DNA of 64,000 bases from Catenovulum sediminis (GTDB lineage: Bacteria; Pseudomonadota; Gammaproteobacteria; Enterobacterales; Alteromonadaceae). Below, one piece after another: positions 38,785-63,857 of the stretch (the stretch's first letter is position 1; every line of letters begins with the position of its first letter). The stretch covers positions 558,001 through 622,000 of the forward strand of contig NZ_CP041660.1 in NCBI RefSeq assembly GCF_007289895.1. Reading direction: 5' to 3'. The translations under genes were made by a program, and so were the position numbers. Under the pieces are notes generated by a model that saw only the letters and a program-made list of their open reading frames with translations, was not told the origin of the DNA and did no database searches.

Positions 38785-39333
38785 GTGTAGGTCGGCCCTT
38801 TAGGGCGACGATGTTTAATTCGACATCGTGCATGATGCGAGATTTGTCGGACTAAAGTCCGACCTACATTTAAGCTACAAGTTTCAAGTTGAAAGCCGCG
38901 AGCTACAAGCCGTGTAGGTCGGCCCTTTAGGGCGACAAGTTTTGAGATTCGAGCCGCGAGCTTCGAACCGTGTAGGTCGACCCTTTAGGGCGACAATTAT
39001 TAATTAGACATCGTGCATGATGCGAGATTTGTCGGACTAAAGTCCGACCTACATTTAAGCTACAAGTTTCAAGTTGAAAGCCGCGAGCTACAAGCCGTGT
39101 AGGTCGGCCCTTTAGGGCGACAAGTTTTGAGATTCGAGCCGCGAGCTTCGAACCGTGTAGGTCGACCCTTTAGGGCGACAATTATTAATTAGACATCGTG
39201 CATGATGCGAGATCTGTCGGACTAAAGTCCGACCTACATTGTCGGGCTAAAGCCGCGACCTACATTCCTACATTGCCGGGCTGAAGCCACGACCTACATT
39301 CCTACATTGTCGGGCTAAAGCCGCGACCTACAT
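38785..39333 (+). repeat. REP/REPIN cluster with 185-bp tandem duplication
   Basis: About eleven GTAG-type palindromes separated by AT-rich spacers and degenerate 7-bp repeats (GAGCTTC/AAGTTTC). It contains an almost exact tandem duplication with a 185-bp period (38823-39007 and 39008-39192) plus the start of a third copy. Three arm types occur: CCCT-TT-AGGG, GACT-AA-AGTC and GGCT-GA-AGCC inner stems in GTCG...CGAC. It fills the whole gap between creA and rapA; no gene seen. Confidence 0.9.
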
Positions 39334-39367
39334 TTCTTGCAACTCGAAGCTTGTAACTGAAAGTCGA

Positions 39368-42286
39368 TCAATTATGGCTGACGACAATCAACCTAACGGC
39401 ATCTAATTTTACACGGGCTTGTTTTAAATGCTCATGCAATGCTGTTTTTTGCTGAATCAAAGATTCCAGCTCTATCGGTCGAATACTTGGGTTAACAGCT
39501 TTAAGTGCGGTTAATCGCTCAATTTCATCGCCTAATTCTTCGTCTACTTTAGCAATTGACTGAGCGATTAAATTATCCCGCTCAACATTAGCTTTAGTTT
39601 CAGCCTGCCCTATCAGTTCGTGAATCTGCGGTTGTAACGCAGTCGCTAACTGAGAAGCAACTTGCTTATTAACCGGTTTAAGCTGTTTGTTTAAACCATC
39701 AAACGTTACTTTTGCCGCTAAATCATTCCCCGCTTTATCTAATAAAATACGCACCGGTGTCGGCGGTAAAAAGCGACCGGGCTGCAATTGTTTTGGCGCA
39801 CTGGTTTCAACCACAAAAATTAACTCAACCAAATAGGTGCCTTCTGGCAAAGCTTTGTTGTTTAAAATGCTAACCGCGTTATTGCCCATTTCGCCGGCGT
39901 TGATCATCTCAAAACAGCCTTGCACCATAGGGTGATCCCAACTGATAAAACGCACATCTTCACGGGATAACGCTGTTTCGCGGTCAAAACTAATGGTCAT
40001 GCCCTCATCCCCTAATTCAGGGAAATGCGGTTCAAGCATATGTTCGGTTGGGTTTATCGCAATACACTGCTCACCCTTATCATCTTGCGAAACCCCATAC
40101 ACATCAAAAGTTTGAAGCATAAAAGCAACCAACTGAGTATCATCATCCATCGCTTCAATATCTTCAGCGATGCGCTCGCCATCAAAACCTTTTGAATTTA
40201 ACTCAAGTAAGATATCACGCCCTTCTTCTAACTGAAGATTGATTTGTTCAATTTCAGCTTTTGCGCGTTCAATTAAAGGCTTGATCTGGGTTTCATCAAA
40301 TTGGTTACTGGCCAAAGCCGTTAATAAAGCATCGTTTTGTTGCTCGAATACTTTAACCCCAGCCGGACAGGTTTCTGCATAGGCATTAATCCCTTTGTGC
40401 TGCCAGTTAAACAAAGTTTCAGCGGCCGAGTCGGCAAAATACGGAATGTTAATTTGAATATCATTACGCTGACCAATACGGTCTAAACGACCAATTCGCT
40501 GTTCTAACAAATCTGGGTTAAGTGGGATATCGAATAAAACAAGTTGACGGGCAAACTGAAAGTTACGACCTTCCGAACCAATTTCAGAACAGATCAACAA
40601 CTGACATCCTTCATCCTGATCAGCAAACCAAGCGGCCGCTCGGTCACGTTCAACTATCGTCATACCTTCGTGAAAAACTGCAGCATTTAAACCAAATTTA
40701 ACACGCACCGCTTGCTCAAGCGTCAACGCAGTAGAGGCCCGCGCACAAATAATTAAAAACTTGTCTTGTTTGTTTTCTTTAATTAACTCAGCTAACCAAT
40801 CGATACGCGGATCAATTCGCCACCATTCAATATCGCCGCTAATTGCATTTTGATACAAAAACTCAGGCGTTAATAATGGCGCAACCGCTTTTGCTGAATA
40901 ATCTTCCGGGTGGCGTTTTAACCACCAATCTGCTGCAGCCCGATATTCAGAAGGTAGTTCTAATTCAGTAGGCAATACACAACGTTTCGGAAAGCCTTTG
41001 ACGGAAGCTCGCGTATTTCTGAACAACACACGGCCTGTGCCATGTCTGTCGATTAAACTGCGGATAATTTTATGCCTAGCCTGCTGCGCAACCGTTTTAT
41101 CTGCATCATTGATTGACAACACAGAGGCTTCAAAACCTTCACCCTGCTCTTGCTCGCCTAAAGACTTGAGTTTTTCTAAACCGTCGGCGTCAATTTTTTC
41201 ATCACTGTTTAATAATTTAGCTAAATCAGCAACTGCTTTATAACCCGCCTCTTCTTTAACAAAAGTCGCATAATCATAAAAACGCTCAGGATCTAACAAA
41301 CGTAAGCGCGCAAAATGGCTTTGATGCCCCAACTGATCCGGCGTTGCTGTTAACAACAACAAACCTGCACAAATTTTAGCAAGCTTTTCCACCGCGCTAT
41401 ATTGTGGACTAACGGCCTCTTCGCTCCAGTCTAAGTGGTGCGCTTCGTCAACAACCACCAGATCCCAACTGGCCTGACAAGCTTGCTCTAAACGTTTATC
41501 CGATTCAGATAAAATGGTTAATGGCGCAATGATAAGCTGTTCTGTTTCAAAAGGATTTTCTTCTGACTCATCATATTCGCCACATCTTTCTTCATCAAAA
41601 ATCGCGAACTTAAGATTAAAACGGCGCAGCATTTCAACAAGCCACTGATACTGCAAAGACTCAGGTAATAAAATCAGCACCCGAGATGCACGCCCAGTTA
41701 ATAACTGCTGATGAATAATCATGCCAGCTTCAATGGTTTTACCTAAACCCACTTCGTCAGATAGCAAAATACGGGGGGCCACCCGGCTACCCGCCTCTTT
41801 GGCAATGTGTAATTGGTGCGGAATTAACGCTGTACGCGCACCGGCTAAACCAACGAGCGGATGGGTTTGATATTTATGCTGCATGCATCTAGCGTCGTAG
41901 CGTAATGTATACCAGTCATTTCTATCAATTTGCGCGGTGAATAATCTGTCTTGTGGTTTATTAAATTTGATATGATGATTAATTCGGGTTTCTAATAACT
42001 GCGCTTTTTCACCATTATCCGAGCGCTCGCCTATGTAAATATTTAAACCATCTTCGGCCATAACCTGATGGACATTTAGCGTCCACCCTTCAGCACTTTC
42101 CACTGAATCTCCGGGGTTAAAACTGACTCGCGTTAAAGGTGCGCTGCCTGCTACGTATTCTCGTTGGTCGCCTGTGGCAGGAAATAACATTGAAATTCGA
42201 CGGCCGTTGATGGCAACAATAGTACCTAAACCTAAATCAGACTCTGAATCACTAATCCAGCGTTGTCCAAGTGCAAAATCACTCAT
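39368..42286 (-). CDS. rapA: RNA polymerase-associated ATPase RapA
   Basis: 972 residues, close to E. coli RapA. N-terminal Tudor-like domains (~1-110), SNF2-type helicase core with DEVGLGKT near residue 177 and DEAH near 278, helicase C-terminal part with GRLDRIGQRNDI, and a C-terminal RapA domain. Swi2/Snf2 ATPase that recycles RNA polymerase. REP clusters flank it on both sides. Confidence 0.96.
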   Translation of the reverse strand: MSDFALGQRWISDSESDLGLGTIVAINGRRISMLFPATGDQREYVAGSAPLTRVSFNPGDSVESAEGWTLNVHQVMAEDGLNIYIGERSDNGEKAQLLETRINHHIKFNKPQDRLFTAQIDRNDWYTLRYDARCMQHKYQTHPLVGLAGARTALIPHQLHIAKEAGSRVAPRILLSDEVGLGKTIEAGMIIHQQLLTGRASRVLILLPESLQYQWLVEMLRRFNLKFAIFDEERCGEYDESEENPFETEQLIIAPLTILSESDKRLEQACQASWDLVVVDEAHHLDWSEEAVSPQYSAVEKLAKICAGLLLLTATPDQLGHQSHFARLRLLDPERFYDYATFVKEEAGYKAVADLAKLLNSDEKIDADGLEKLKSLGEQEQGEGFEASVLSINDADKTVAQQARHKIIRSLIDRHGTGRVLFRNTRASVKGFPKRCVLPTELELPSEYRAAADWWLKRHPEDYSAKAVAPLLTPEFLYQNAISGDIEWWRIDPRIDWLAELIKENKQDKFLIICARASTALTLEQAVRVKFGLNAAVFHEGMTIVERDRAAAWFADQDEGCQLLICSEIGSEGRNFQFARQLVLFDIPLNPDLLEQRIGRLDRIGQRNDIQINIPYFADSAAETLFNWQHKGINAYAETCPAGVKVFEQQNDALLTALASNQFDETQIKPLIERAKAEIEQINLQLEEGRDILLELNSKGFDGERIAEDIEAMDDDTQLVAFMLQTFDVYGVSQDDKGEQCIAINPTEHMLEPHFPELGDEGMTISFDRETALSREDVRFISWDHPMVQGCFEMINAGEMGNNAVSILNNKALPEGTYLVELIFVVETSAPKQLQPGRFLPPTPVRILLDKAGNDLAAKVTFDGLNKQLKPVNKQVASQLATALQPQIHELIGQAETKANVERDNLIAQSIAKVDEELGDEIERLTALKAVNPSIRPIELESLIQQKTALHEHLKQARVKLDAVRLIVVSHN

Positions 42287-42420
42287 GGTTGTTCATTACT
42301 CCTCTTTGAAGGCGGCGTATATTACCCAAAGCGCTGGTTGCTTTCACGGATAATTTCAAAGTATTGAAGATAAATGGTGAAGTTACAAGCTTCTAGCTGT
42401 AAGTTTCGAGCTGCGAGTTG

Positions 42421-42757
42421 TGTAGGTCGGCCCTTTAGGGCGACAATTATTAATTCGACATTGTGCATAATGCAAGATTTGTCGGGCTGAAGCCGCGACC
42501 TACATTTTAGCTACGAGCCGCGAGCTTCGAGCTTCGAGCTGTGTAGGTCGTTCCTTTAGGACGACAATTATTAATTCGACATCGTGCATAATGCGAGATT
42601 TGTCGGGCTGAAGCCGCGACCTACATTTAAGCTTCGAGCTTCGAGCTTCGAGCTGTGTAGGTCGTTCCTTTAGGGCGACAATTTGTAGGTCGGCCCTTTA
42701 GGGCGACAATTATTAATTCGACATCGTGCATAATGCAAGATTTGTCGGGCTGAAGCC
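42421..42757 (+). repeat. REP/REPIN cluster, left of the IS
   Basis: Three head-to-head arm pairs with the CGACATTGTGCATAATG-type spacer and heptamer runs (GAGCTTC) between them. The last pair is interrupted in its second arm by the IS at 42758. The cluster continues after the IS. Confidence 0.9.
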
Positions 42758-43957
42758 TTAGGGATCCCCACAATTAAGGTGACATCTCGTTTCCATAATG
42801 AGTAACTCAAAAGCTTCTTGGAGCATCGAATTTGTTATAGCAAAACTTGAATTCAGCAATATTCTTTTGGCCAGATAGCAATATGATAAGACACGCCTTC
42901 GCTTTTCGGTATTGGCCTGAAAGTGTCGGTGATAACCTTGCAATTCTGCAGCTTTTCCAATGACGTATAGTTGCCACTGAGCCAGCAAAGCGATGAGTAG
43001 CAATGCCTGTAAACGCTCGATAGATTGGCTTCTAGAGCGCCTTAAGCCCAGCCCATAATATTCGTTTTTAGTGTCTCTAAAAGCTTCTTCTATTGTCATT
43101 CTACGCTTGTAAATATTAACCAGAGCAAGAGCAGAAAACTCATCTTCAGGTAGATTACTGACCAGAAACCAGGGCTCACTGTTACCTTTTGAATATTTTT
43201 TATAGCTGTTGCAGTTAGGTCGTTTCGTGGGTTTTTTGTGTTTCTTTGGTGGGGGTGATGTTTTATACAAGACGCCTCTGCAAGACCACTTGTGTTGTTT
43301 TGATAAGACTAAACCTTTTAAGGCCGTGGGTTTTGTTTTGGCCTGTGAGTGATAGGCATCCACCAATGTCCATTCTGAGTTATCGTCTGTTTTACATTTT
43401 ACAGTGCCACGAGTACGTGCAAGCCAATACCAATTTAATTTATCAATTGCTTTGAACCATGGCACTTTAAATCCAGCGTCTGTAACAATCACAGGACAAC
43501 ACTCATCGGGCAGAATCTGCTTTAAATTCTGAAGAAACTTGACATGAATTTTATGGTTATTCATAGCGCCTTCAGCGTGTACCTCTTCATAGATGGTAAA
43601 AGCTCGACCATCAAATGCGACCGAAGCTCGAAGTAGTACAAAGCTTTGGTCGTAAACACTTGACCAGTCAACAATAATGGGCAAAGCATCCTCAATTCCA
43701 CCCGTTAAATAAGCGGTCAGAGTCTTATAAAATTGCGTGCGGTTTTGTTGTAATTTCTCATTTTTAAGTAATCTATCAACACGTTTGATGCAATGTTTTT
43801 CTGTAGTGGAAGGGCTTTGCTCACCAAGTGTTCTGCCAATCGCGGTTAGGCTTAACTTCGCACCATGTTGAACACAAGAAACGGTATCGGAGAGTGCCTT
43901 TTTAATTCGTTTATCCAGTGCTATTGAATTTTCTGAAAGCAAGTTTGATAATAACAA
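42758..43957 (-). CDS. IS4-family (IS10-like) transposase
   Basis: 399 residues, DDE transposase. Catalytic Asp regions VDWSSVYDQ and VTDAGFKVPW, and the IS4 signature Y-x2-R-x3-E-x6-K in YKRRMTIEEAFRDTK. Overall sequence resembles IS10 transposase (402 residues), for example LRASVAFDGRAFTIYEEVH and GLGLRRSRS. The reading frame appears intact. Its stop codon is formed by the terminal three bases of the IS end. Confidence 0.94.
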   Translation of the reverse strand: MLLSNLLSENSIALDKRIKKALSDTVSCVQHGAKLSLTAIGRTLGEQSPSTTEKHCIKRVDRLLKNEKLQQNRTQFYKTLTAYLTGGIEDALPIIVDWSSVYDQSFVLLRASVAFDGRAFTIYEEVHAEGAMNNHKIHVKFLQNLKQILPDECCPVIVTDAGFKVPWFKAIDKLNWYWLARTRGTVKCKTDDNSEWTLVDAYHSQAKTKPTALKGLVLSKQHKWSCRGVLYKTSPPPKKHKKPTKRPNCNSYKKYSKGNSEPWFLVSNLPEDEFSALALVNIYKRRMTIEEAFRDTKNEYYGLGLRRSRSQSIERLQALLLIALLAQWQLYVIGKAAELQGYHRHFQANTEKRRRVLSYCYLAKRILLNSSFAITNSMLQEAFELLIMETRCHLNCGDP

Positions 43958-44044
43958 TTTGATGCCCCTTGTTGTAACTTGTTTTTGGCGAAATTAGTTT
44001 AACCAATAAGTGGGCATCTTTTCAAAATTTGTGGGGAGCCTTAA
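42758..44044 (-). mobile_element. IS4-family insertion sequence, IS10 group
   Basis: 1287 bp. Terminal inverted repeats TTAGGGATCCCCACAA and TTAAGGCTCCCCACAA match at 14 of 16 positions. Both ends are flanked by GGCTGAAGCC (42748-42757 and 44045-44054), a 10-bp direct repeat. Because this sequence is a palindrome, the exact duplication length is ambiguous, and 9-10 bp fits the IS10 group. The target is the right arm of a REPIN. One transposase gene fills the element. Confidence 0.92.
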
Positions 44045-44404
44045 GGCTGAAGCCGCGACCTACATTTAAGCTTCGAGTTTCAAGCTTCGAGCTGTGTAGG
44101 TCGTTCCTTTAGGGCGACAATTATTAATTCGACATTGTGCACAATGTGAGATTTGTCGGGCTGAAGCCGCGACCTACATTTTAGCTGCAAGTTTCAAGTT
44201 TCAAGTTTCAAGTTTCAAGTTTCGAGCCGCGAGCTTCGAGCTGTGTAGGTCGGCCCTTTAGGGCGACAATTATTAATTCGACATTGTGCACAATGCGAGA
44301 TTTGTCGGGCTGAAGCCGCGACATTGTTTAGCTCGACATTTGTGCGTTCTGCTTTGACGGACTAAAGTCCGACCTACATTGTCGGGCTGAAGCCGCGACC
44401 TACA
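44045..44404 (+). repeat. REP/REPIN cluster, right of the IS
   Basis: Continues the cluster cut by the IS. Five or six palindromic arms, with a very regular 7-bp run of five AAGTTTC units followed by GAGCCGC, GAGCTTC and GAGCTGT just before an arm at about 44243. The rest of the gap to the PhoH gene (44405-44578) holds more heptamer-like repeats, then an ordinary leader. Confidence 0.9.
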
Positions 44405-44578
44405 CTTCTTGCAACTTGCAACTTGCAACTTTTATCTTGCAACTCGTAGCTCGTAGCTCGTAGCTCGCATCTCAAAACACAAAACTTAAATAAAAAACTT
44501 GCTCATTTTGCGTTTTCACCCGATAGTAAAAATAAGCGTATAGGATAAACGCGATAATCTAACTATTCAGGGGGCCAG

Positions 44579-45967
44579 ATGACCGAGAAAATGACTAAGA
44601 TTTATATACTCGACACCAACATCCTGCTACACGAACCATTCGCTTTTTTGAACTTTCAAGAACACGACGTATTCATCCCAATGACGGTATTAGAAGAACT
44701 CGATGCCATCAAAGACCGTAAAAAAGACGTCAGTCGAGATGCACGAATTGCGATTCGGGCACTAGAAGATTCATTAAAAGATGCCACACCAGAGGAGATT
44801 GCCGACGGTGTCAGCATGAAGAGATATTCAACTGAACATGGCTCAACCGGAAAACTAGCCATTTACCCTGATCACCTGCTCACCCAAGACAGAGTCACTT
44901 TACCTGGCCCTGAAAATGACAACCGAATTATTAATGCAGCATTGCACCTGCAACAAGACAAAGCACCCAGAACCGTCATACTGGTTACCAAAGACATCAA
45001 TATGCGCCTCAAAGCAAAAGGCGCTGGTATGGAACGCGTTGAAGACTATCGCACCGACCAATTAATTTCCGACATAAAATACTTAAGCACAGGCTATGCC
45101 GAAATAAAAGGTGATTTCTGGTCACAAATCACCAACTGCGAAAGTGAAACAGAAGGTAGAGATGCCATTCACACCGTTGAACGATCAGTGCTACCCAAAA
45201 CCGTATTCATCAACCAATATATATTTGACGAAGCACATTCATTTGCCGGTAAAGTTATAGAGCACAATGACGAAACGGTAAAACTTAAAGATCTCGGCTT
45301 CGACCGCATGATGGGCCGCCATGCTTGGGGCATTTCCCCCAAAAACTTTCATCAAGCGATGGCCATGGATGCACTGCTCGACACCCATATTGATTTAGTG
45401 TTACTAACCGGCCCAGCTGGAAGCGGTAAAACCTTACTGGCTCTAGCCGCTGCGCTTGAAATGGTCGTTGAGCAAGGCATTTACGAAAAAATTATAGTCA
45501 CCCGAAACACACCAGAAATTGCCGAATCTATTGGCTTTTTACCCGGTACAGAAGAAGAAAAGATGGCCCCTTGGTTGGGTGCGATTAATGACTCGCTGGA
45601 TTTTTTACATCGCCATGATGAATGCCGCGAAAGTAGCATGCGTTATATTATGGAAAAAGCCAACATACAGTTTAAATCAGTCAACTTTATGCGCGGGCGT
45701 AGTATTCAAAAGTCCATTGTGATTTTGGATGAATGCCAGAATATGACCTCTTCGCAACTCAAAACCATAATAACTCGGGCTGGTGAAGGTACTAAACTTA
45801 TTTGCTGCGGCAACCTGGCGCAAATCGACAGCAATTATTTATCACCATTAACTTCAGGTTTAACCTATATTGTCGAATGTTTTAAAGATTTTGAGGGGAG
45901 CGCCACGGTCCATATTGCAGGTGTGATGCGGTCAAGATTAGCGTCATTTGCAGAGAAAAATTTGTAG
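44579..45967 (+). CDS. PhoH-family ATPase with N-terminal PIN domain
   Basis: 462 residues. PIN nuclease domain (~5-140) with LDTNILLHEP, EELDAIKD and a later acidic KDINMRLKA site; PhoH ATPase domain (~250-460) with Walker A GPAGSGKT (278-285) and VILDECQNM. PIN-PhoH (PhoH2/YlaK-like) proteins are described as ribonuclease/RNA helicases. Strong GGGGG stretch before the ATG. REP clusters on both sides. Confidence 0.93.
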   Translation: MTEKMTKIYILDTNILLHEPFAFLNFQEHDVFIPMTVLEELDAIKDRKKDVSRDARIAIRALEDSLKDATPEEIADGVSMKRYSTEHGSTGKLAIYPDHLLTQDRVTLPGPENDNRIINAALHLQQDKAPRTVILVTKDINMRLKAKGAGMERVEDYRTDQLISDIKYLSTGYAEIKGDFWSQITNCESETEGRDAIHTVERSVLPKTVFINQYIFDEAHSFAGKVIEHNDETVKLKDLGFDRMMGRHAWGISPKNFHQAMAMDALLDTHIDLVLLTGPAGSGKTLLALAAALEMVVEQGIYEKIIVTRNTPEIAESIGFLPGTEEEKMAPWLGAINDSLDFLHRHDECRESSMRYIMEKANIQFKSVNFMRGRSIQKSIVILDECQNMTSSQLKTIITRAGEGTKLICCGNLAQIDSNYLSPLTSGLTYIVECFKDFEGSATVHIAGVMRSRLASFAEKNL

Positions 45968-45994
45968 TTTTATTAAGCTGCGAGTCACGAGCTG

Positions 45995-46362
45995 TGTAGG
46001 TCGTCCCTTTAGGGCGACGATTATTAATTCGGCAGTTGCGAATTATGCTTTGTCGGCGTAAACACCGACCTACATTGTCGGGCTAAAGCCGCGACCTACA
46101 TTTTAGTTTTAAGCTGCGAGTCACGAGCTACGAGTTGCGAGCTGTGTAGGTCGTCCCTTTAAGGGCGACGAGTTTAATTCCGCAGTAGTGTATCCTTCAT
46201 TGTTGGCCTAAAGACCAACCTACACTTTGTCGGCGTAAACACCGACCTACATTGTCGGGCTAAAGCCGCAACCTACATTTTAGTTTTAAGCTACGAGTCA
46301 CGAGCTTCGAGCTGTGTAGGTCGTCCCTTTAGGGCGACGATTATTAATTCGGCAATTGCGAA
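45995..46362 (+). repeat. REP/REPIN cluster running into the DUF1289 gene
   Basis: Seven or eight arms of four stem types, including GTCGGCGTAAACACCGAC and the T/A-substituted form GTTGGCCTAAAGACCAAC. The last REPIN is truncated: its left arm and spacer remain, and the spacer encodes the C-terminus and stop of the gene ending at 46344. Confidence 0.88.
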
Positions 46363-46559
46363 TTTTTCTTTTTTATTTCTTCCATTCGCTTTTCTGCTGA
46401 AACAAGTACTTTACGTTTGTCATCATCCGACATAAAAATCCAATCTGTTCTTTCGTCTCGTGTCCGTCCGCATCCTTCACAAACATTTTGATCATTCAAC
46501 ACACAGTAACCAATACAAGGATTTGCCACATGCTGACCCCACAAATCTTTATCTGTCAC
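46344..46559 (-). CDS. DUF1289 family protein
   Basis: 71 residues. NPCIGYCVLNDQNVCEGCGRTRDE with four Cys suited to metal binding is the DUF1289 mark, followed by a W-x-x-MSDDDKRKVL helix. Function unknown. The last codons (about NSQLPN and the stop) lie in REPIN spacer sequence, so its tail has probably been rewritten by the repeat. Confidence 0.88.
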   Translation of the reverse strand: MTDKDLWGQHVANPCIGYCVLNDQNVCEGCGRTRDERTDWIFMSDDDKRKVLVSAEKRMEEIKKKNSQLPN

Positions 46560-46707
46560 AAAAAACTCCGCGAATCAATTTAGAAAAATGTAAGACAATA
46601 CACTACACTATAAAGACATTTCCAGATTATACTAATCAAGTCAGCAAATTAAATGCAGGTTCCAGTGAAACTGACTGAGCTTTAAATAGAAATTAGGATT
46701 AAATAAT

Positions 46708-47028
46708 ATGGTCATCAACAAACCAGAAGCGCTAGAACGTTTAGCAGGAAATGAACAACTTTTTGTGATGTTGGTTAAAAAATTTGCAAACCAATATGAA
46801 AACGCAGCCAGTGAACTTGAAACATTGCTCAAAGAAAACAATCTTAAAGATGCGGCAGTAATGGCGCATTCAATTAAAGGTGCGGCCGGAAATTTGAGTA
46901 TGAACAATCTTTACGAAGAAGCAAAAGTTCTAGAAGCAGAGCTCAGAAATGGCGAATATAAAGCAGAATCCTTTGCAAAGTTTTCTACCGCTTTAAACGA
47001 TGTTATTCACGAATCAAAATCTTGGTAA
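46708..47028 (+). CDS. histidine phosphotransfer (Hpt) protein
   Basis: 106 residues, all helical. Hpt motif MAHSIKGAAGNLS with phospho-accepting His54. Relays phosphate between a hybrid sensor kinase and a response regulator. The REC-GGDEF protein gene begins 13 bp downstream and is its likely partner; no kinase gene is nearby. Confidence 0.9.
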   Translation: MVINKPEALERLAGNEQLFVMLVKKFANQYENAASELETLLKENNLKDAAVMAHSIKGAAGNLSMNNLYEEAKVLEAELRNGEYKAESFAKFSTALNDVIHESKSW

Positions 47029-47041
47029 ATAAAACAACTTA

Positions 47042-47968
47042 ATGACGAATGCAATTGATAATCAGCAAAGTGTACTCATTGTTGATGACCAAAATATTAA
47101 CACATTGGTATTAGAAAATGCACTATCCCCCCTTTACACAGTCTATACTGCAAATGGTGGGCAAGCCGCTTTAAATATTTTACATTCTCAAACGTCTATC
47201 GACCTAGTCTTGCTAGATATTCAAATGCCCGATCTAGATGGATATCAGGTACTACTAGACATCAGACAAAATGACGCAACAAAAAATATTCCAGTGATAT
47301 TCATCTCTGCTAAAGATGCAGCAGAAGACGAAGCCAAAGGACTGGAGTTCGGGGCAATGGATTATATCACCAAGCCATTCAACATAACGGTTGTCAAAGC
47401 AAGAGTTAGAAACCAACTTTCGTTAAAAAAGAAATCAGATTTACTTGAAAAGCTCGCCAACATTGACGGTTTAACAGAAGTTCCGAACCGCAGACGTTAT
47501 GATGAAAAATTAGATTTAGAATGGCGGCGTTGCGCACGCTCTTCTAGCCCACTGTCAATGATAATGCTGGATATAGACGCCTTTAAACCGTTTAATGACA
47601 ATTATGGACACAGTGCGGGTGACGAAATTCTAAAACAAGTTGCCTCAACACTCAGTAAAAAAATAAGAAGAAGTGGAGACGAAGCTTTTCGCTATGGCGG
47701 CGAAGAATTTGTAATTTTACTACCCGAAACCAGTTTTGAATCATCAATCCGAGTGGCAGAAATGATGCGTGAAGCAATCGAAGCATTAGACATACCGCAC
47801 GAGTATAGCCCGGTAGAAAAACACATCACGGTCAGTCTAGGGGTATCTTCAATCGTCCCCGTTGCAACCATGTCCGCCAAGACATTACAAGAATTTACTG
47901 ATCTACAGCTTTACAAAGCCAAAAATGCAGGACGAAACCAAGTGCAAGGCGAACTCCTGCAAGTATAA
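47042..47968 (+). CDS. response regulator with diguanylate cyclase domain (PleD-like)
   Basis: 308 residues. REC domain (~9-125) with LLDIQMPDLDGYQ, phospho-acceptor Asp59 and conserved Lys in ITKPFN; GGDEF domain (~140-305) with active-site GGEEF near residue 219 and an upstream SMIMLDIDAFKPFND metal site. Makes c-di-GMP when phosphorylated. Operon with the Hpt gene. Confidence 0.94.
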   Translation: MTNAIDNQQSVLIVDDQNINTLVLENALSPLYTVYTANGGQAALNILHSQTSIDLVLLDIQMPDLDGYQVLLDIRQNDATKNIPVIFISAKDAAEDEAKGLEFGAMDYITKPFNITVVKARVRNQLSLKKKSDLLEKLANIDGLTEVPNRRRYDEKLDLEWRRCARSSSPLSMIMLDIDAFKPFNDNYGHSAGDEILKQVASTLSKKIRRSGDEAFRYGGEEFVILLPETSFESSIRVAEMMREAIEALDIPHEYSPVEKHITVSLGVSSIVPVATMSAKTLQEFTDLQLYKAKNAGRNQVQGELLQV

Positions 47969-47984
47969 ATTTATCTGAACTGAC

Positions 47985-48452
47985 TTAAACCGTATCGAAA
48001 AATATTTCGATATGCTCACATGTTTTGTCAATTTCAGATGTATCCACCGGTGCAATAAAAATAGTGTCATCACCAGCAATCGTGCCTAAAACACCATGCG
48101 ATTTATTTAATGAATCTAACATACGCGCAATTAACTGCGCTGCGCCAGGTGTGGTTCTGACTATAATCATTGCCTGATTATGACTTACATCTAAAACCAA
48201 CTGTTTTAAAGGACTTTCAGCTGTCGGCAGCCCTAACTCAGGCGGCAAACAATAAACCATCTCCTGCTTTGCGTTGCGCGTCCTTACAGCGCCAAAACGA
48301 CTTAATAAGCGCGAGACCTTAGATTGGCTGATGCTATCAAATCCCTCATCTTTCAACGCCTCGACAATATCAGCCTGAGATGAAAACGTCTGCTCGTTTA
48401 ACAGCGTTTTAAAAACCTTTAATAACTTGTCTTGTTTATCATTATTGTTCAA
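47985..48452 (-). CDS. argR: arginine repressor
   Basis: 155 residues, typical for ArgR. N-terminal winged helix ([20 protein letters not shown]), C-terminal arginine-binding/hexamerisation domain with the [11 protein letters not shown] motif. Convergent with the REC-GGDEF gene. REP clusters follow its start side. Confidence 0.95.
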
Positions 48453-48508
48453 AAAAATACCTATGTTTTAGTTTTAAGCCGCGAGCTTCGAGCTTTAAGC
48501 TACGAGCT

Positions 48509-48889
48509 GTGTAGGTCGTCCCTTTAGGGCGACGAATTTCAAGCTGCGAGCTTCGAGCTTTAAGCTACGAGCTGTGTAGGTCGTCCCTTTAGGGCGACAA
48601 TCTCAATTCAATAATTGTGCAATATGCCTTTGTCGGCGTAAACACCGACCTACATTGTCGGGCTGAAGCCACGACCTACATTTTAGCTTCGAGTTGCGAG
48701 TTTCAAGCTGCGAGCTTCGAGCTTCGAGCTGTGTAGGTCGTCCCTTTAGGGCGACAATCTCAATTCAATAATTGTGCGATATGCTTTGTCGGCGTAAACA
48801 CCGACCTACATTGTCGGGCTAAAGCCACGACCTACATTGTCGGGCTAAAGCCGCGACCTACATTGTCGGGCTGAAGCCACGACCTACAG
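48509..48889 (+). repeat. REP/REPIN cluster between ampE and argR
   Basis: About nine palindromic arms; the left part repeats an (AGCTTCG)-type heptamer run plus arm unit twice (48481-48600). The right end is three consecutive GGCT-type arms, the last ending two bases before the ampE stop codon. No gene seen in the gap. Confidence 0.9.
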
Positions 48890-48890
48890 T

Positions 48891-49727
48891 TTACAAAATG
48901 CCCGTTATGGTAAAAATTGCGATAATGCTTAATAAAAACAAAAATGCACGTTTCGCCAATTTTAACAACACACACGGCTCTGTTAAATAATCATGTTCTG
49001 GGCAACTCACATCTTCAGCTTTATCTGCAATATCCGTAATATAAGTACGGGCGTCTAAATCGCAGCGCGTTAAACCATTTAACCAAGTGGGTAACGCCCT
49101 TGAAAAATGACCAACAAACAAAAACGCAAAACCGGTAATCCGCGCCGGCAGCCACACTAAAATTGCCAATAGCCTATTACTGGGCCGAGCCAACCAACGT
49201 AAATTATCTTTCTGTAAACTCTGTTTCGCCAAATTTCGGCTAAAAACGTAAAACACAGCGCCCGCCGCACCTAACACAACAAACCAAAAAATAACCGCAA
49301 AATAATGCCTAAAATTAATCCAAACTAAAGTTTGCCCCAAGGTTTCCTTTGAACCCTTATTAAACTTCTGGCCAAGTTTTTCACCATATAAATAGCAAGC
49401 TTCCTGATCGCCCCGACAAGCCGCTTCTAAATACTGTTTATAACAAACGCGATGCTGCGGACAGCCATAACATAAAAACAAAATAAAAATAGAAAACAGC
49501 AACCCCAGCACCCCCGTGCCTAAAAGTAACTGCACAACAGCAACAGACACCGCTGGGATAGCCAGCCAAATAAGCAGAAAAACTTCAGCGCTGACAGATT
49601 CAGATTTCTTCAAAACCGACTGCACTTTATCCTGATACCAATTGAAATAATGACGATAGTGAAACGTTTCAGTCACCTGAACTAAACGCTCCAGAAGCAC
49701 CACAACGATTAAGCTAAGCAATGTCAT
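48891..49727 (-). CDS. ampE: AmpE-like membrane protein
   Basis: 278 residues with four to five membrane helices. AmpE family features: start TLLSLIVVVLLERLV, VQVTETFHYRHYFNWY, and later LVWINFRHYFAVIFWFVVLGAAGA. AmpE is an inner-membrane protein encoded with ampD and linked to beta-lactamase/cell-wall recycling signalling. It overlaps ampD by 4 bp. Confidence 0.88.
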   Translation of the reverse strand: MTLLSLIVVVLLERLVQVTETFHYRHYFNWYQDKVQSVLKKSESVSAEVFLLIWLAIPAVSVAVVQLLLGTGVLGLLFSIFILFLCYGCPQHRVCYKQYLEAACRGDQEACYLYGEKLGQKFNKGSKETLGQTLVWINFRHYFAVIFWFVVLGAAGAVFYVFSRNLAKQSLQKDNLRWLARPSNRLLAILVWLPARITGFAFLFVGHFSRALPTWLNGLTRCDLDARTYITDIADKAEDVSCPEHDYLTEPCVLLKLAKRAFLFLLSIIAIFTITGIL

Positions 49728-50299: not shown

Positions 50300-50300
50300 A

Positions 50301-50896: not shown

Positions 50897-51319
50897 TGTA
50901 GGTCGCGGCTTTAGCCCGACAAATTTCGCAATATGCACGATGTCGCCCTAAAGGGACGACCTACACGACTCGAAGCTTAAAGCTAAAATGTAGGTCGCGG
51001 CTTCAGCCCGACAAATTTCGCAATATGCACGATGTCGCCCTAAAGGGACGACCTACACGGCTCGAAGCTCGCGACTCAAAGCTTAAAACTAAAATGTAGG
51101 TCGCGGCTTTAGCCCGACGTGTAGGTCGGTGTTTACGCCGACAATTTTGATATTTACGCTAAATGTCGCCCTAAAGGAACGACCTACACAGCTCGAAGCT
51201 CGCGACTCGAAGCTTAAAACTAAAATGTAGGTCGCGGCTTTAGCCCGACGTGTAGGTCGGTGTTTACGCCGACAATTTTGATATTTACGCTAAATGTCGC
51301 CCTAAAGGGACGACCTACA
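50897..51319 (-). repeat. REP/REPIN cluster with 131-bp tandem duplication
   Basis: About ten arms, in the opposite orientation to the clusters to its left (GGCT-type arm first, CCCT-type last). A unit from about 51091 recurs at 51222 (131-bp period) with few changes, holding a GGCT arm, a CGTAAACA-type arm, a spacer (TTTTGATATTTACGC) and a CCCT arm. Heptamer runs (GCTCGAA) lie between units. No gene. Confidence 0.9.
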
Positions 51320-52224: not shown

Positions 52225-53637
52225 ATGGAATATCCAAACATACAACACCACGGCGCGGTCGATGGTGTAACCGGCTCATGCCACAGATTATGCGTCAGCG
52301 AACAACAACATATACTCATCGATTGTGGACTGTTTCAAGGCGCAGAAACATCCGGCAAAGCCAACCAGTTAATACCTGAAATCGATTTTCCAACAGAACA
52401 CATTAAAGGCCTCATCGTCACCCACTGCCACATAGATCACGTGGGCAGAATCCCCTGGCTGATAGCCGCAGGTTTCACCGGCCCCATCTACTGCACACCC
52501 GCGACAGCACAACTACTGCCACTCGTATTAGAAGATGCGATAAAAATTGGCATCACCAAGAAAAAACCCTTTATCGAAGCACTGCTAAAACGCATCAAGT
52601 CACAAATCAACGCTAAACCCTATAAACGCTGGTTTAATGCCAGTGGTGTACAAAACGTAAAAATAAAATTTCAACCTGCCGGACACATATTAGGATCGGC
52701 CTATGTAGAAATTGAACACCAGCCAACTGCGCACAAATACGTATTTTCCGGCGACTTAGGCGCGCCGCACACACCCCTGCTACCCGCACCACGCTCGCCT
52801 TACCGAGCAGACACCTTAGTCATAGAAAGCACCTACGGCGACAAAAAACACACAGGGCGAAGACAAAGACGCAAACAACTGCAGCAGGTAATTGAAAAAT
52901 GCCTGCAAGATCGCGGCGCAGTTTTAATCCCCGCCTTTAGTATTGGCCGGACACAAGAATTGTTATACGAAATAGAAGACATTATTTCACGCAGCAAAAA
53001 CAACGGCCTAACCAACCGAAACATCTGGCATTCAATGCAAGTGATACTCGACTCACCACTTGCGGCAAAATTTACCGAACACTACAAGTCATTATCAAAA
53101 TTATGGGATGCAGAAGCCCAGCAAAAAATAGTCCGCCATCGCCACCCACTAGACTTTGATGATTTGTACACCATAGACTCACACGAAGAACATCTAAACG
53201 CGATAAATTACATACAAAAAACAGCAACACCATGCATTATCATCGCAGCCAGCGGCATGTGCAGCGGCGGGCGCATATGCAACTACCTAAAAGCCCTGCT
53301 ACCCGATAAAAGAACCGACGTATTATTTGTTGGATATCAAGCAAAAGGCACACCCGGACGCGACATACAAAAATACGGCCCTAAAGGCGGATATGTTGTG
53401 ATAGATGGAGAAAAAATTGACATCAAAGCCGGCGTACACACTCTAAGCGGTTACAGCGCACATGCAGATCAAAAAGATCTGCTCAATTTTGTTAAACGCA
53501 TGCGTATAAAACCTAAACATATCAAAATAGTACACGGCGACGATGACGCAAAATTAGCATTAAAAAAGGAATATGAAAGAATACTCCCCGAAGCAAAAAT
53601 AGAAATAGCAAGCAGCGAGAGTGGGTCGTCCCTTTAG
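52225..53637 (+). CDS. metallo-beta-lactamase/beta-CASP nuclease
   Basis: 470 residues. MBL motifs HCHIDH (67-72) and GHILGSAYVE, SGDLGAP, then the beta-CASP domain with PAFSIGRTQE, SGMCSGGRI and the C-terminal HTLSGYSAHADQ. Resembles RNase J/CPSF-type exonucleases, mostly RNA processing. No signal peptide. Tightly coupled to ligE. The last four codons and the TAG stop are REP sequence (GGGTCGTCCCTTTAG), so the natural C-terminus may have been altered. Confidence 0.9.
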   Translation: MEYPNIQHHGAVDGVTGSCHRLCVSEQQHILIDCGLFQGAETSGKANQLIPEIDFPTEHIKGLIVTHCHIDHVGRIPWLIAAGFTGPIYCTPATAQLLPLVLEDAIKIGITKKKPFIEALLKRIKSQINAKPYKRWFNASGVQNVKIKFQPAGHILGSAYVEIEHQPTAHKYVFSGDLGAPHTPLLPAPRSPYRADTLVIESTYGDKKHTGRRQRRKQLQQVIEKCLQDRGAVLIPAFSIGRTQELLYEIEDIISRSKNNGLTNRNIWHSMQVILDSPLAAKFTEHYKSLSKLWDAEAQQKIVRHRHPLDFDDLYTIDSHEEHLNAINYIQKTATPCIIIAASGMCSGGRICNYLKALLPDKRTDVLFVGYQAKGTPGRDIQKYGPKGGYVVIDGEKIDIKAGVHTLSGYSAHADQKDLLNFVKRMRIKPKHIKIVHGDDDAKLALKKEYERILPEAKIEIASSESGSSL

Positions 53638-53872
53638 GGCGACAATTGCGCATAATGCGGGGTTTGTCGGGCTAAAGCCGCGACCTACATTTTAGCTACG
53701 AGCAGTGTAGGTCTGCCCTTTAGGGCGACAATTGCGCATAATGCGAGATTTGTCGGGCTAAAGCCGCGACCTACATTTAAGCTACGAGCAGTGTAGGTCT
53801 GCCCTTTAGGGCGACAATTGTGCATAATGCAAGATTTGTCGGGCTAAAGCCGCGACCTACAGGGCGACAAAT
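53621..53872 (+). repeat. REP/REPIN cluster overlapping a gene end
   Basis: Three head-to-head pairs about 85 bp apart, with the spacer CAATTGCGCATAATGCG. The first arm lies inside the beta-CASP gene. The last arm ends 7 bp before the convergent nadC stop. Confidence 0.9.
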
Positions 53873-54736: not shown

Positions 54737-54846
54737 AAACACGCCGGTAAGGTAGAGAAATTGGGGAATGGATTATAAAGGGGCAAGCTATAAGCTGCAA
54801 GTTTTGAGATTCGAGCTACGAGCTTTAAGCCGCGAGCTACGAGCTG

Positions 54847-55230
54847 TGTAGGTCGGCCCTTTAGGGCGACAAATTTAATTCGACATCGTGCATATTGCGA
54901 AATTTGTCGGGCTAAAGCCGCGACCTACATTTTAGTTTTGAGCTTCGAGCTACGAGCCGCGAGCTACAAGCCGTGTAGGTCGGCCCTTTAGGGCGACAAA
55001 TTTAATTCCGCAATTGTGTATCCTTCATTGTTGGCCTAAAGACCAACCTACACTTTGTCGGCATAAATACCGACCTACATGTCGTGCTAAAGCCGCGACC
55101 TACATTTTAGTGTTGAGCTTCGAGCTTTAAGCCGCGAGCTACGAGCCGTGTAGGTCGTCCCTTTAGGGCGACGAGTTTAATTCGACATCGTGCATATTGC
55201 GAAATTGTCGGGCTGAAGCCGCGACCTACA
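54847..55230 (+). repeat. REP/REPIN cluster before manC
   Basis: About eight arms of four types, alternating with heptamer runs (GAGCTAC, GAGCTTC, AAGCCGC). It includes GTTGGCCTAAAGACCAAC. The 600-bp gap between nadC and manC is otherwise empty apart from a 100-bp AT-rich leader before manC. Confidence 0.9.
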
Positions 55231-55338
55231 TTGGTACGCTCGTAGCTATTTTGCAACAATTCCGCGCTTACGCAATTTATAAATAAATGATAGCATTAGC
55301 CGGATAAAACGAATCAGTAAAACAAGGAATAAAAGCGC

Positions 55339-56748
55339 ATGTTTTTACCAGTAATTATGGCGGGCGGTTCTGGCTCGCGATTGTGGCCATTGTCACGCTC
55401 TGCATACCCTAAACAATATCTGCCATTAACCAGCGACAGCACTATGTTACAAGAAACTGTGCTACGCTTAAAAGGCGCTCAACACAGAGCACCTATGGTT
55501 ATCTGTAACGAAGATAGCCGATTTATGGTTGCAGAACAATTACGTGCAATCAACGCATTACAAAGCCCGGTTATCTTAGAACCGGTCGGACGTAACACAG
55601 CACCCGCTATCGCATTAGCTGCACTACAAGCAGTTGCCGACGGAGATGATCCACTATTATTAGTATTGGCGGCCGATCACGTCATCAAAAACCAACAAGC
55701 ATTTATCAATGCAATTGCACAAGCTGAAAAACTAGCAGAACAAAATGCAATGGTGACATTTGGAATCGTACCAACACACGCCGAAACCGGATACGGATAC
55801 ATCAAACGTGGCGCAAGCCAAGATGATGCCTACAAAGTAGATGCATTTGTCGAAAAACCAAATTTAGAAACCGCAACAGAATACCTAAACAGCGGCGAAT
55901 ACTACTGGAACAGCGGCATGTTTATGTTTAAAGCCAGCCGCTATTTAAGTGAACTCGAAAAATATCAGCCAGAAATACTCGCGGCCTGTAAAAAAGCGAT
56001 TGGCAATACATCGGCCGATTTAGACTTTGTGCGCGTCGACAAAGCCGCATTTGAAGCCTGCCCAGACGACTCAATAGACTACGCTGTAATGGAAAAAACA
56101 GATTCAGCCGTAGTTGTACCATTAGATGCTGGTTGGAACGATGTTGGCTCATGGTCAGCATTATGGGAAGTCAACGACAAAGACGAAAACGGCAATGCAG
56201 TTCGTGGCGACTTTATCGGCGAAAACAGCAAAAATTGTTTAGTTTATGGTTCAGTTGAAGGCCGATTAGTGGCAACCGTAGGCGTTGAAGACCTGGTAAT
56301 AGTCGATACCAAAGATGCCGTCATGGTCGCGCACAAAGACAAAGTGCAAGATGTCAAAACCATCGTAAACAAACTAAAAGCCGAAGGCCGCAGCGAATCT
56401 AAATTCCACCGCGAAGTTTATCGCCCATGGGGTAAATACGACTCAATCGACAACGGCGCGCGATATCAGGTAAAACGCATCACAGTAAAACCGGGTGCAA
56501 AATTATCGGTACAAATGCACCACCACAGAGCCGAACACTGGATAGTGGTATCCGGCACAGCCAAAGTAACCAACGGCGATAAAGAATTATTATTAACAGA
56601 AAATCAATCAACCTATATACCGGTCGGCGTGATACATGCATTAGAAAACCCAGGAAAAGTGCCATTAGAATTGATAGAAGTTCAATCCGGCTCATACCTA
56701 GGCGAAGACGATATCGTCCGATTTGAAGACAGATACGGCCGAGTGTAG
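55339..56748 (+). CDS. manC: mannose-1-phosphate guanylyltransferase / mannose-6-phosphate isomerase
   Basis: 469 residues. Bifunctional type II enzyme: GDP-mannose pyrophosphorylase part with [19 protein letters not shown] and [10 protein letters not shown], and a C-terminal cupin isomerase with [18 protein letters not shown]. Makes GDP-mannose for exopolysaccharide. Followed by phosphomannomutase. The stop codon TAG is the GTAG of a REP arm, so the final Val-stop (GTG TAG) comes from the repeat. Confidence 0.95.
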
Positions 56749-56969
56749 GTCGCGGCTTCAGCCCCACATGTAGGTCGCGGCTTCAGCCCGACATGTGGGT
56801 CGGTGTTTACGCCGACAAATCTTGCAATATGCACAATTATCGAATTAAAACCGTCGCCCTAAAGGGACGACCTACACGACCGGTATTAAATTGAAATTTG
56901 TCGCCCTAAAGGGACGACCTACACGACCGGCATTAAATTGAAATTTGTCGCCCTAAAGGGCGACCTACA
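56744..56969 (-). repeat. REP/REPIN cluster between manC and manB
   Basis: Three GGCT/CGTAAACA-type arms followed, after the spacer, by three CCCT-type arms; the last two are separated by a short ACCGGCATTAAATTGAAAT unit that is repeated. Reverse orientation. Starts inside the manC stop codon. Confidence 0.9.
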
Positions 56970-57000
56970 CTGAATTGAAAATTTACGGATAAACCAAACA

Positions 57001-58365: not shown

Positions 58366-58417
58366 ATGCGAGCTACGAGCTTCGAGCTTCGAGCTTTGAG
58401 CTGCGAGCTTCGAGCGG

Positions 58418-58522
58418 TGTAGGTCGTCCCTTTAGGGCGACAATGTAGGTCGTCCCTTTAGGGCGACAATGTAGGTCGTCCCTTTAGGGCGACAATGTAG
58501 GTCGTCCTTTAGGGCGACAATT
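58418..58522 (+). repeat. four head-to-tail REP singlets, 26-bp period
   Basis: A 26-bp unit (TGTAG, then GTCGTCCCTTTAGGGCGAC, then AA) is repeated at 58418, 58444, 58470 and 58496; the fourth copy lacks one C. Unlike other clusters there are no right arms or spacers. A heptamer run (GAGCTTC) precedes it. Confidence 0.92.
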
Positions 58523-58583
58523 TCTAGCAACGAGCTTTGAGCTTTATTTATCAATAACATGGATTTTCAGAAAGGGATTTTTT

Positions 58584-58928
58584 ATGTATTACGAAAAACT
58601 CGCGATATGGCAGCGTAGTAAAGCTTTAACAATTGACGTTTATAGTACGCTGTCAAATTTAAGAGACTACGGATTTAAAGACCAAATAACACGCTCTATC
58701 TTGTCAGTTCCCAGCAATATAGCCGAAGGTATGGAAAGATACTCAGATATCGACAAGGCGCGTTTTCTAGTCATTGCGAAAGCCTCTATTGGCGAATTTA
58801 AAACACAGACTGACATAGGCGTAGAAATTGGTTATATTCCATTGCAAACAGGTACAGTATGGATGAACGAAGCCGAACAAATTTCAAAAATGATCGGCAG
58901 CTTTATCCACACACTCAAATCTAATTAA
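58584..58928 (+). CDS. four-helix-bundle protein (S23 family)
   Basis: 114 residues. Family marks: YEKLAIWQRSKALTIDVY, LSVPSNIAEGMERYS and KASIGEFKTQTDIG. Related to the proteins encoded in 23S rRNA intervening sequences; often found near polysaccharide genes. Function unknown. GAAAGGGA ribosome site upstream. Confidence 0.92.
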   Translation: MYYEKLAIWQRSKALTIDVYSTLSNLRDYGFKDQITRSILSVPSNIAEGMERYSDIDKARFLVIAKASIGEFKTQTDIGVEIGYIPLQTGTVWMNEAEQISKMIGSFIHTLKSN

Positions 58929-58989
58929 AGCTCGAAGCTCGTAACTTGAATCTCGAAGCTCGAAGCTAAAAAAACCTAAGGAGCCAAAT

Positions 58990-60156: not shown

Positions 60157-60304
60157 TGTAGGTCGCGGCTTTAGCCCGACATGTAGGTCGCGGCTTCAGC
60201 CCGACATGTAGGTTGGCCTGTAGGTCGCGGCTTTAGCCCGACAAATCTCGCAACATGCACGATTGTCGATTTAAAATTTGTCGCCCTAATCGGACGACCT
60301 ACAT
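60157..60304 (-). repeat. REP/REPIN cluster between ugd and hepT
   Basis: Three GGCT-type arms, a degenerate TTGGCC piece, spacer, then a CCCT-type arm mutated to CCGATTAGGG that encodes the end of the hepT gene. Reverse orientation. Confidence 0.88.
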
Positions 60305-61093: not shown

Positions 61094-61102
61094 AAAAAAC
61101 CT

Positions 61103-61366
61103 GTGGGTCGTGGCTTTAGCCCGACATGTAGGTTGGCCTTTAGGCCAACAATCCATAAATAAACGCCAATGTCGCCCTGTAGGTCGTGGCTTTAGCCCGA
61201 CAAATCTCGCAACATGCACATTGTCGCCCTAAAGGACGACCTACATTTAAGCTGCGAGCTTCGAGCAACGAGTAAACAACCTGTAGGCCGTGGCTTTAGC
61301 CCGACAAATCTCGCAACATGCACGTTGTCGATTTAAAATTGTCGCCCTAAAGGGACGACCTACATT
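61103..61366 (-). repeat. REP/REPIN cluster between YjbH gene and mntA
   Basis: Two to three reverse-oriented REPINs with the spacer AAATCTCGCAACATGCACGTT, a TTGGCCTTTAGGCCAACA arm (symmetric in its stem), and heptamer runs (GAGCTGC, GAGCTTC, GAGCAAC). An open frame at 61247-61435 is made of this material. Confidence 0.9.
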
Positions 61367-61409
61367 TGAGCTGCGAGCTTCGAGCAACGAGCAACGAGCA
61401 AAATCCACA

Positions 61410-63614: not shown

Positions 63615-63665
63615 TATATTCTTTAAAAATATGGGCCGCCGATAAAAGCGACGTTTTTATTTCAA

Positions 63666-63857
63666 TGTAGGTCGTCCCTTTAGGGCGACAATTCAAAATC
63701 AATGTAGGTCGTCCTTTAGGGCGACAATGTGCATATTGCGAAAATTTGTCGGGCTAAAGCCGCGACCTACATTTTAGCTTCGAGCTGTGTAGGTCGTCCC
63801 TTTAGGGCGACAACGTGCATAATGCGAAAATTTGTCGGGCTAAAGCCACGACCTACA
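63666..63857 (+). repeat. REP/REPIN cluster near the window end
   Basis: Two CCCT arms, then a GGCT arm, then a complete REPIN with spacer GTGCATAATGCG. Lies between the YjbH gene start and the terminator below. Confidence 0.9.

Follow-up and report, generated by a model that had tools for sequence, protein, structure and literature searches.

A population of GTAG-tagged hairpin repeats of the REP/REPIN kind crowded around a RAYT gene in Catenovulum sediminis

The intergenic DNA of Catenovulum sediminis contains short GTAG-tagged hairpins (hereafter arms), which form a sharply bounded zone of approximately 70 kb around a gene for a REP-associated tyrosine transposase (RAYT). It is very probable (about 0.9) that the arms are a REP/REPIN population of the GTAG type and that this gene is their own RAYT, and it appears reasonably likely that the copies preferred sites near the RAYT. 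The window, i.e., the whole stretch of 64,000 nucleotides that was analyzed (positions 558,001 to 622,000 of contig NZ_CP041660.1, here C1), covers the left part of this zone.

A pattern scan with GTAGGT[CT]G-N10/11-C[GA]AC, allowing up to one mismatch, detected 87 arms in the window, so that the number of about 90 given in a sequence-only reading of this DNA was right. All of them are located within positions 38,787-63,856, while no arm was detected by the same pattern and mismatch limit in positions 1-38,786, and 20 random sequences keeping the dinucleotide steps of the window contained only 0 to 4 arms each. The sequence-only reading had described each arm as a GTAG tag followed by a hairpin with one variable base; tag and hairpin are indeed present, but the variable base is confined to the 23-nt arms (68 of 87; 18 of the 27 distinct arms), whereas the 19 22-nt arms, which include the GTGT/ACGC, GACT/AGTC and GTTGG/CCAAC forms together with some CCCT-like arms, form a continuous stem if G-T pairs are counted. 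Its claim that the inner stems differ while pairing is kept agrees with our counts: over the 27 distinct window arms, 105 of 108 inner-stem cells were paired (G-T counted), compared with a mean of 73.4 and a maximum of 91 in 2000 shuffles, a control that takes no account of the relatedness among arms. Likewise, in five other genomes, whose 27 distinct arms include 18 left triplets, 77 of 81 inner cells were paired (67 of 81 without G-T), compared with a mean of 35 and a maximum of 52 after shuffling. A search of the window against Rfam at the gathering score gave no match.

Neighboring arms in + then - orientation with less than 60 nt between them were regarded as facing pairs, and 25 such pairs were found in the window, in line with the inverted arms, short spacer and many copies that characterize REPINs. 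The spacer of 35 bp proposed earlier holds for the 15 pairs that are separated by 32-37 nt (36 nt in 7 of them), but not for the remaining 10, in which the distance is only 21-22 nt. Three spacer centers recur, GTGCATAATGC with five exact occurrences, GTGCATGATGC with three and GCGCATAATGC with two. Furthermore, the pairs are asymmetrical in that arms with an AGGG right side occupy one strand, opposite the other types that could be classed. This split was observed in all 12 window clusters having both kinds and in 35 of 40 two-type clusters over the DNA of this genome that was examined (57 clusters, of which the other 17 were one-sided; 36 of 336 arms were unclassable and excluded from the strand count).

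Many clusters are tandem arrays with periods of 26-185 bp. The first cluster (38787..39331, 11 arms) includes a 185-bp tandem duplication of an arm-spacer-arm unit with a heptamer tract, the cluster at 53621..53860 (6 arms) has an 86-bp tandem unit and overlaps the upstream ORF (52225-53637) at its 3' end, and four AGGG-type arms stand head to tail with a 26-bp period on the + strand at 58419..58518. The cluster at 45996..46338 (7 arms) has GTGT/ACGC and GTTGG/CCAAC forms among its arms, and the one at 50898..51318 (10 arms) is in reverse order, with an AGCC-type arm first. At 56745..56968 (6 arms), the mannose-1-phosphate guanylyltransferase gene upstream of the cluster has its stop codon in the TAG of the first GTAG. 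Further clusters are located at 44096..44403 (5 arms), 48511..48887 (9 arms), 54848..55229 (8 arms), 60158..60302 (4 arms and a broken arm at 60208, which has two mismatches and was not counted), 61103..61363 (6 arms) and 63667..63856 (5 arms); the latter is the last in the window, and the zone runs on to C1:667274. Heptamer tracts accompany the arms, as exemplified by 3.6 copies of AGCTTCG at 42630..42654 (+ strand) and by the tracts at 44188-44223, 48685-48730, 58369-58415 and 58928-58967. Four loci that seemed to contain such tracts without arms (L059, L060, L061 and L063) turned out to have arms in all four stretches, and one tract on contig C2 is 2.4 kb away from the nearest arm. The reversed heptamer pattern also gave matches, 91 in this genome and 14 in the relative G043, as expected of repeats, so the reversed-pattern control is a weak one for heptamers. 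No novelty is claimed for these tracts; among the entries listed in literature searches on them, one concerned other bacteria and nothing fitting was found.

The cluster at 42422..42707 (6 arms) is followed by an arm of the GGCT/AGCC type that is split by an insertion sequence of the IS4 family (1287 bp, 42758..44044, - strand; transposase ORF 42758-43957). The element is inserted in the inner stem-loop and flanked by a 10-bp duplication, GGCTGAAGCC, and all three copies in the genome are found at the same point of an arm stem-loop. The restriction of all 3 copies of the element to these hairpins suggests that the arms are also recognized by a second, unrelated transposase. A comparable case is ISRm22 of Sinorhizobium meliloti, which likewise belongs to the IS4 family and is inserted exclusively in REPs, where it occupies a palindromic site, but differs in its 6-bp duplication, the REP concerned and its copy number of nine (PMC1525189).

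The RAYT gene is located at C1:647,033-647,479, 25 kb beyond the end of the window. In a profile search (E ≤0.001) it gave the only Y1_Tnp match of the genome (49 bits, above the cut-off); it also matched NCBIfam NF047646, the REP-associated tyrosine transposase model, with 131 bits (cut-off 80), and the TnpArep structure 4er8 in PDB (E 3e-7). Its HUH motif is MPDHFH, and its tyrosine lies within ARYI. Among six aligned homologues, the second histidine (H67) and the tyrosine (Y124) are invariant and the first histidine is present in five. The sequence-only reading had proposed a search for a single RAYT with matching flanks, and this one Y1-type gene does have arms on both sides, the nearest upstream at approximately 80 bp from the start used for the RAYT and the nearest downstream at approximately 730 bp, past another ORF. 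One of the 150 "arms" scored in the zone is a stretch of the RAYT gene itself and bears no resemblance to an arm.

The strict 23-nt pattern gave 241 exact matches on both strands of the genome and none for its reversed control, compared with no match in 53 of 59 relatives and 1-3 in the other six. The excess of arms elsewhere in the genome that was looked for is thus present, and a large minority of the arms lies outside the zone, on both contigs. None of the findings named beforehand as adverse (no RAYT, no excess of arms elsewhere, chance-level compensation) was encountered. Because the strict pattern misses 22-nt arms, a 22-nt pattern was run separately on the relatives; it had 49 matches in this genome and none in 54 of the 59. 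The three relatives that have a close RAYT were also those with the most matches (34 in G010, but only 4 in G005 and 5 in G030), and two others had 2 and 1. GTAGGTCG hairpins, built on the same plan, adjoin the RAYTs of all three, which are 56-57% identical to the one described here (56% in G005 and G030), as well as those of two Pseudoalteromonas, sp. S2755 (53% identity) and P. flavipulchra (62% over the best segment). The latter two were the only RAYT relatives found in a wider contig scan; they have 27 and 37 scattered arm matches, of which 4 and 1, respectively, adjoin the RAYT, and since the P. flavipulchra match spans 646 bases for 149 residues, this gene may be interrupted. The low numbers in G005 and G030 and the scatter in the two Pseudoalteromonas speak against a REP population served by its RAYT, and so does the distance of the downstream arms from the RAYT described here. 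When the locus of the RAYT itself is set aside, 4 of the 15 arm loci of G010 are within 30 kb of the gene (binomial 3e-5, with the limit chosen after the list was seen; 4 of 17 with a wider pattern).

Within the zone, arms were present in 21 of 25 intergenic gaps compared with 2 of 78 in the flanks, one of the two very probably being the zone's first gap (the preceding ORF ends at C1:596772, 8 bases before the limit). Most gaps of the zone are filled, and the sequence-only reading had missed the scale of this crowding around the RAYT. With only 1.45% of the genome, the zone contains 46 of 76 AGGG-type 23-nt arms, 28 of 49 22-nt matches and 17 of 30 merged loci (binomial 5e-24, for zone limits drawn after the data were seen). 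The genome-wide crowding rests on these whole-genome pattern counts and not on densities in clusters outside the zone, which are not a random sample because these clusters were taken for having matches. By analogy with characterized TnpA-REP enzymes, the RAYT probably copies these arms: it would bind an arm folded as a single strand, by way of the GTAG tag and the hairpin, and then cut it, and arm pairs (REPINs) would be copied to new intergenic sites. After arrival or activation of the RAYT, copies may have accumulated mainly nearby, and tandem duplication of 26- to 185-bp units may have multiplied the arms within gaps. Arm similarity showed no clear fall with distance and at best a weak signal in Mantel tests of two arm types (AGGG type, r 0.148, 86 of 5000 permutations as high; AGCC type, r 0.03, 1514 of 5000; within the zone, r -0.002 and 0.162, respectively), so that spread from the RAYT can only be inferred.

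The shape of the zone is what could be expected if it had come as one block, RAYT included, by recombination from a repeat-rich donor, which would require no local preference. Its edges are abrupt, with no arm in 98.8 kb to the left and one in 94.7 kb to the right, and arm density, calculated per kb of non-coding DNA, follows a step instead of decaying from the RAYT. Six of the seven zone bins have 7.5-18 and flank bins 0-0.36, and the lowest value among the six occupied bins (7.55) is that of the bin starting at the RAYT, a profile that also speaks against local spread. Moreover, arms inside the zone resemble each other hardly more than those elsewhere do (mean edit distance 10.29 versus 10.83-10.87 for the AGGG type, 11.32 versus 11.21-11.52 for the AGCC type). 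However, the zone genes rapA, phoH, P47042 and argR are no more divergent (distance ratio 0.99-1.26) than two genes just outside (1.44 and 1.19), as judged from 3-7 genus relatives per gene and the left part of the zone only, and the GC content of the gene-dense outer zone (43.1 and 43.8% versus 41.9 and 41.7% in the flanks) is shifted too little to be decisive. Third-position GC was 40.1 and 40.7% in the outer parts and 37.1% in the flanks, and the polysaccharide part of the zone has a GC content of 37.6%. Import from a distant donor is thus not supported by gene divergence or GC in this small set, and a block may still have come from a donor within the species or very close to it; overall, we consider such an import unlikely. 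The sharp edges and the saturation of most gaps within a fixed stretch of approximately 70 kb could also mean that REP spread was bounded by a chromosomal domain, with the degenerate heptamer tracts as a co-amplified second component, a distinctly doubtful proposal.

Arms are accommodated between widely conserved genes, such as rapA, nadC, a leuS-like gene and PBP genes. We take four further genes to be argR, ampD, ampE and phoH from their sequence and gene order, the NCBIfam matches of phoH being below their cut-offs. The rapA-phoH gap measures 2292 bp, or approximately 995 without the insertion sequence and its duplication, compared with 343-451 bp in four relatives; in G002 it is 80 bp and the gene order is different. 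Similarly, the argR-ampE gap is 438 bp here and 36 bp between aligned ends in G002, and 182,543 bases around rapA in seven relatives contained no hairpin arm, only two one-mismatch matches that fail to pair. Replication slippage and recombination between repeats could have generated most copies, leaving a minor role for the present RAYT, given that many clusters are tandem and that the heptamer tracts, which are unlike RAYT substrates, are tandem as well. Yet tandem growth alone cannot place arms in 13 separate clusters of the window, and the link between arms and RAYT recurs in other genomes, which makes this explanation very unlikely. Selection of the hairpins as transcription terminators, mRNA stabilizers or gyrase sites, with their spread being secondary, would be in keeping with roles proposed for REPs (PMC3733652, gyrase sites apart), but the arm-bearing zone gaps cover every one of the four gene arrangements (12 --, 4 ++, 3 -+ and 2 +-) and 76 of 78 gaps outside have no arms, rendering a selected function highly improbable as the main cause.

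A GTAG-type population with its own RAYT has clear precedents. An accumulation of REPs close to rayt genes has been reported for three marine gammaproteobacteria and also for Thauera (Nunvar et al., 2010, PMC2817692), and Marinomonas sp. MWYL1 has the REPtrons Ma and Mb (PMC8266576), a source whose text calls the way in which REPs disseminate poorly understood. In this respect, a single RAYT, a compact and abrupt zone and arm-poor relatives provide a convenient case for asking whether RAYTs work chiefly on DNA in their vicinity, and homologous systems in which one pattern counts 4 to 37 arms add to its value. The GTAG REP super-family (Di Nocera et al., 2013, PMC3733652), for which 24 family consensus sequences are reported and whose main text has no mention of Pseudoalteromonas or Alteromonas, shares, by its described features, the unpaired GTAG, the hairpin, the opposite pairs and dimers that are repeated in tandem together with DNA flanking them. 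Judged by their text, the systems of PMC2817692 and PMC8266576 have in common with ours GTAG hairpins, a linked RAYT and REPs near the gene in regions of up to two hundred kb, but they concern other genomes and another hairpin (here GTAGGTCG...TTTA...CGAC), while edges and gap occupancy were measured here. Crowding of REPs near rayt is therefore already in print, and since the hairpins are of a known mobile-repeat kind around the gene of their probable copying enzyme, the present case is a clear further example and not a new kind.

Arms defined as GTAGGT[CT]G, 10 or 11 further bases and C[GA]AC, with at most one mismatch, numbered 87 in the window, grouped into 13 clusters of which the first starts at 38,787 and the last ends at 63,856, while 20 random sequences with the window's dinucleotide steps gave 0-4 matches, so that the roughly 90 arms counted by eye in the sequence-only reading were close to the mark. 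Written without the extra base, the main stem types were GTCG-CCCT/AGGG-CGAC (29 arms), GTCG-GGCT/AGCC-CGAC (28), GTCG-GTGT/ACGC-CGAC (7), GTCG-TCCT/AGGG-CGAC (6) and GTCG-GACT/AGTC-CGAC (3). The single variable base ascribed to every arm was present, between outer and inner stem, in the 68 arms of 23 nt, but absent from the 19 arms of 22 nt. Changes in the inner stem proved to be compensatory, as had been proposed: 105 of 108 inner-stem cells paired over the 27 distinct window arms, compared to 73.4 on average, and never more than 91, in 2000 shuffles of the 3' halves. In a wider set of 261 arms (56 distinct) from the window and an initial set of 20 loci of the genome, 206 of 224 cells paired (shuffled mean 143, maximum 165). 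Two reading frames end in such arms, the stop codon of a mannose-1-phosphate guanylyltransferase gene (56746-56748) being the TAG of a GTAG, and the ORF at 52225-53637 likewise terminating within an arm.

AGGG-type arms, named by the right side of the inner stem, and other classed arms lay on opposite strands in all 12 window clusters having both, and in 35 of 40 clusters (five exceptions) in all DNA fetched from this genome, where 17 further clusters were one-sided and 36 of 336 arms unclassed. The usual REPIN in this genome therefore has two unlike ends. Arm pairs were commonly duplicated in tandem, with units of 185, 131, 121, 92 and 86 bp. Degenerate 7-bp tandem tracts (RAGYTNC) adjoin the clusters at 42630-42654, 44188-44223, 44408-44467, 48685-48730, 58369-58415 and 58928-58967. 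Tracts of at least three units numbered 71 in the DNA examined from this genome: 15 in a 264-kb stretch (498-762 kb), none of which was more than 60 bp from the start of an arm, and 56 spread over 24 other loci, where all but one lay within 500 bp. A four-unit pattern gave 411 overlapping matches in the genome (reversed pattern, 91) and, among 34 relatives, 15 in G043, one in G010 and none in 32. Arms also receive insertions, since an IS4-family element (window 42,758-44,044; C1:864396-865589; C2:164980-166173) interrupts an AGCC-type arm at one identical point and in identical orientation in all three genome copies, flanked by a 10-bp duplication, GGCTGAAGCC or GGCTAAAGCC, that comprises inner stem and loop. 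Similar insertion behaviour is described for ISRm22, of the same family, from S. meliloti (excerpt of PMC1525189).

The predicted excess of arms elsewhere in the genome (4,868,003 bases in two contigs, C1 and C2, the window being C1:558,001-622,000) was evident from 241 matches to the strict 23-nt pattern against none for its reversed control; among 59 relatives, 53 had no match and six had 1-3. The 22-nt pattern matched 49 times and was absent from 54 of the 59 relatives, the others having 34 (G010), 5 (G030), 4 (G005), 2 (G001) and 1 (G048). Clusters occur elsewhere on C1 and on C2, a further group of several being at 2.49-2.58 Mb, and 46 of 76 AGGG-type 23-nt arms and 28 of the 49 22-nt matches fall within one zone, C1:596,787-667,157. 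When merged by distance, the AGGG-type arms form 30 loci, 17 of them in the zone (binomial 5e-24, for limits drawn after the data had been seen). Across the 264-kb stretch, arms occupied 21 of 25 zone gaps of at least 60 bp compared to 2 of 78 in the flanks, one of these very probably being the first gap of the zone itself. Per kb of non-coding DNA, the left flank had 0 arms, the right flank 0-0.36 and six of the seven bins in the zone 7.5-18; the remaining bin, located in the polysaccharide gene cluster and with 130 bp of non-coding DNA, held none. At window 15316-23566, this gammaproteobacterial-looking genome encodes a GH32 enzyme, a LacI regulator and a SusC/SusD pair, a transporter pair typical of Bacteroidota; no arm matched, at up to one mismatch, in this locus, which we take to be one for fructan use.

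At E up to 0.001 the genome has just one Y1_Tnp match, which a protein search located within the zone at C1:647,033-647,479; arms stand close upstream of it and, downstream, beyond another ORF. With REP_Tyr_transpos, an NCBIfam model with a cut-off of 80, its product scored 131 bits, as against 36 with the IS200 model, whose cut-off is 55; the product also matches the solved structure TnpArep 4er8. RAYTs 56-57% identical to this one occur in G010, G030 and G005, the remaining same-genus genomes giving weaker matches only. Hairpins of the form GTAGGTCG-NNN-TTTA-NNN-CGAC stand beside these three genes, together with other GTAG hairpins in G010, and, seen on one side only, beside those of Pseudoalteromonas sp. 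S2755 and P. flavipulchra; in G007, whose homologue is more distant (38% identical), the GTAG hairpins differ in sequence. The S2755 protein (fetched stretch L034, 10001-10447) reads MPDQFH where others read MPDHFH or MPDHLH, so that its HUH motif lacks the first His. In five of the genomes with homologues, 77 of 81 inner cells paired (shuffled mean 35) over 27 distinct arms with 18 left triplets, under a pattern that fixed the outer stem and loop side but not the inner triplets, which independently supports the view that pairing is what counts. In summary, both the observation of a REP family and its interpretation as RAYT-linked were right.

TnpA-REP proteins bind and cut single-stranded REPs via GTAG and the hairpin (excerpt of PMC8266576), and by analogy the C. 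sediminis enzyme would act likewise on its arms, copies of which may pile up near the gene. Such local accumulation is favored by the widely conserved genes included in the zone, by the shorter and arm-free corresponding gaps in relatives and by a smaller arm concentration in G010. However, neither arm similarity nor density clearly falls with distance, G005 and G030 carry a RAYT yet few arms, and arms are scattered in the two Pseudoalteromonas; because of these three points, the zone may instead have been imported as a block from a close donor. Import from a distant donor is not supported by gene divergence or GC, as judged from few genes. Same-genus genomes differ in how the genes around argR, phoH and rapA are ordered and oriented (window 34020-50816 compared with fetched stretches L050, L053, L054 and L056). 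Local accumulation has precedents, as Nunvar et al. (PMC2817692) proposed a pile-up near the gene for Thauera and listed three marine gammaproteobacteria with REPs accumulated near rayt genes, and copies near the RAYT gene are likewise stated for Marinomonas (PMC8266576). The C. sediminis case adds to this known kind a clear-cut REP zone surrounding its RAYT.
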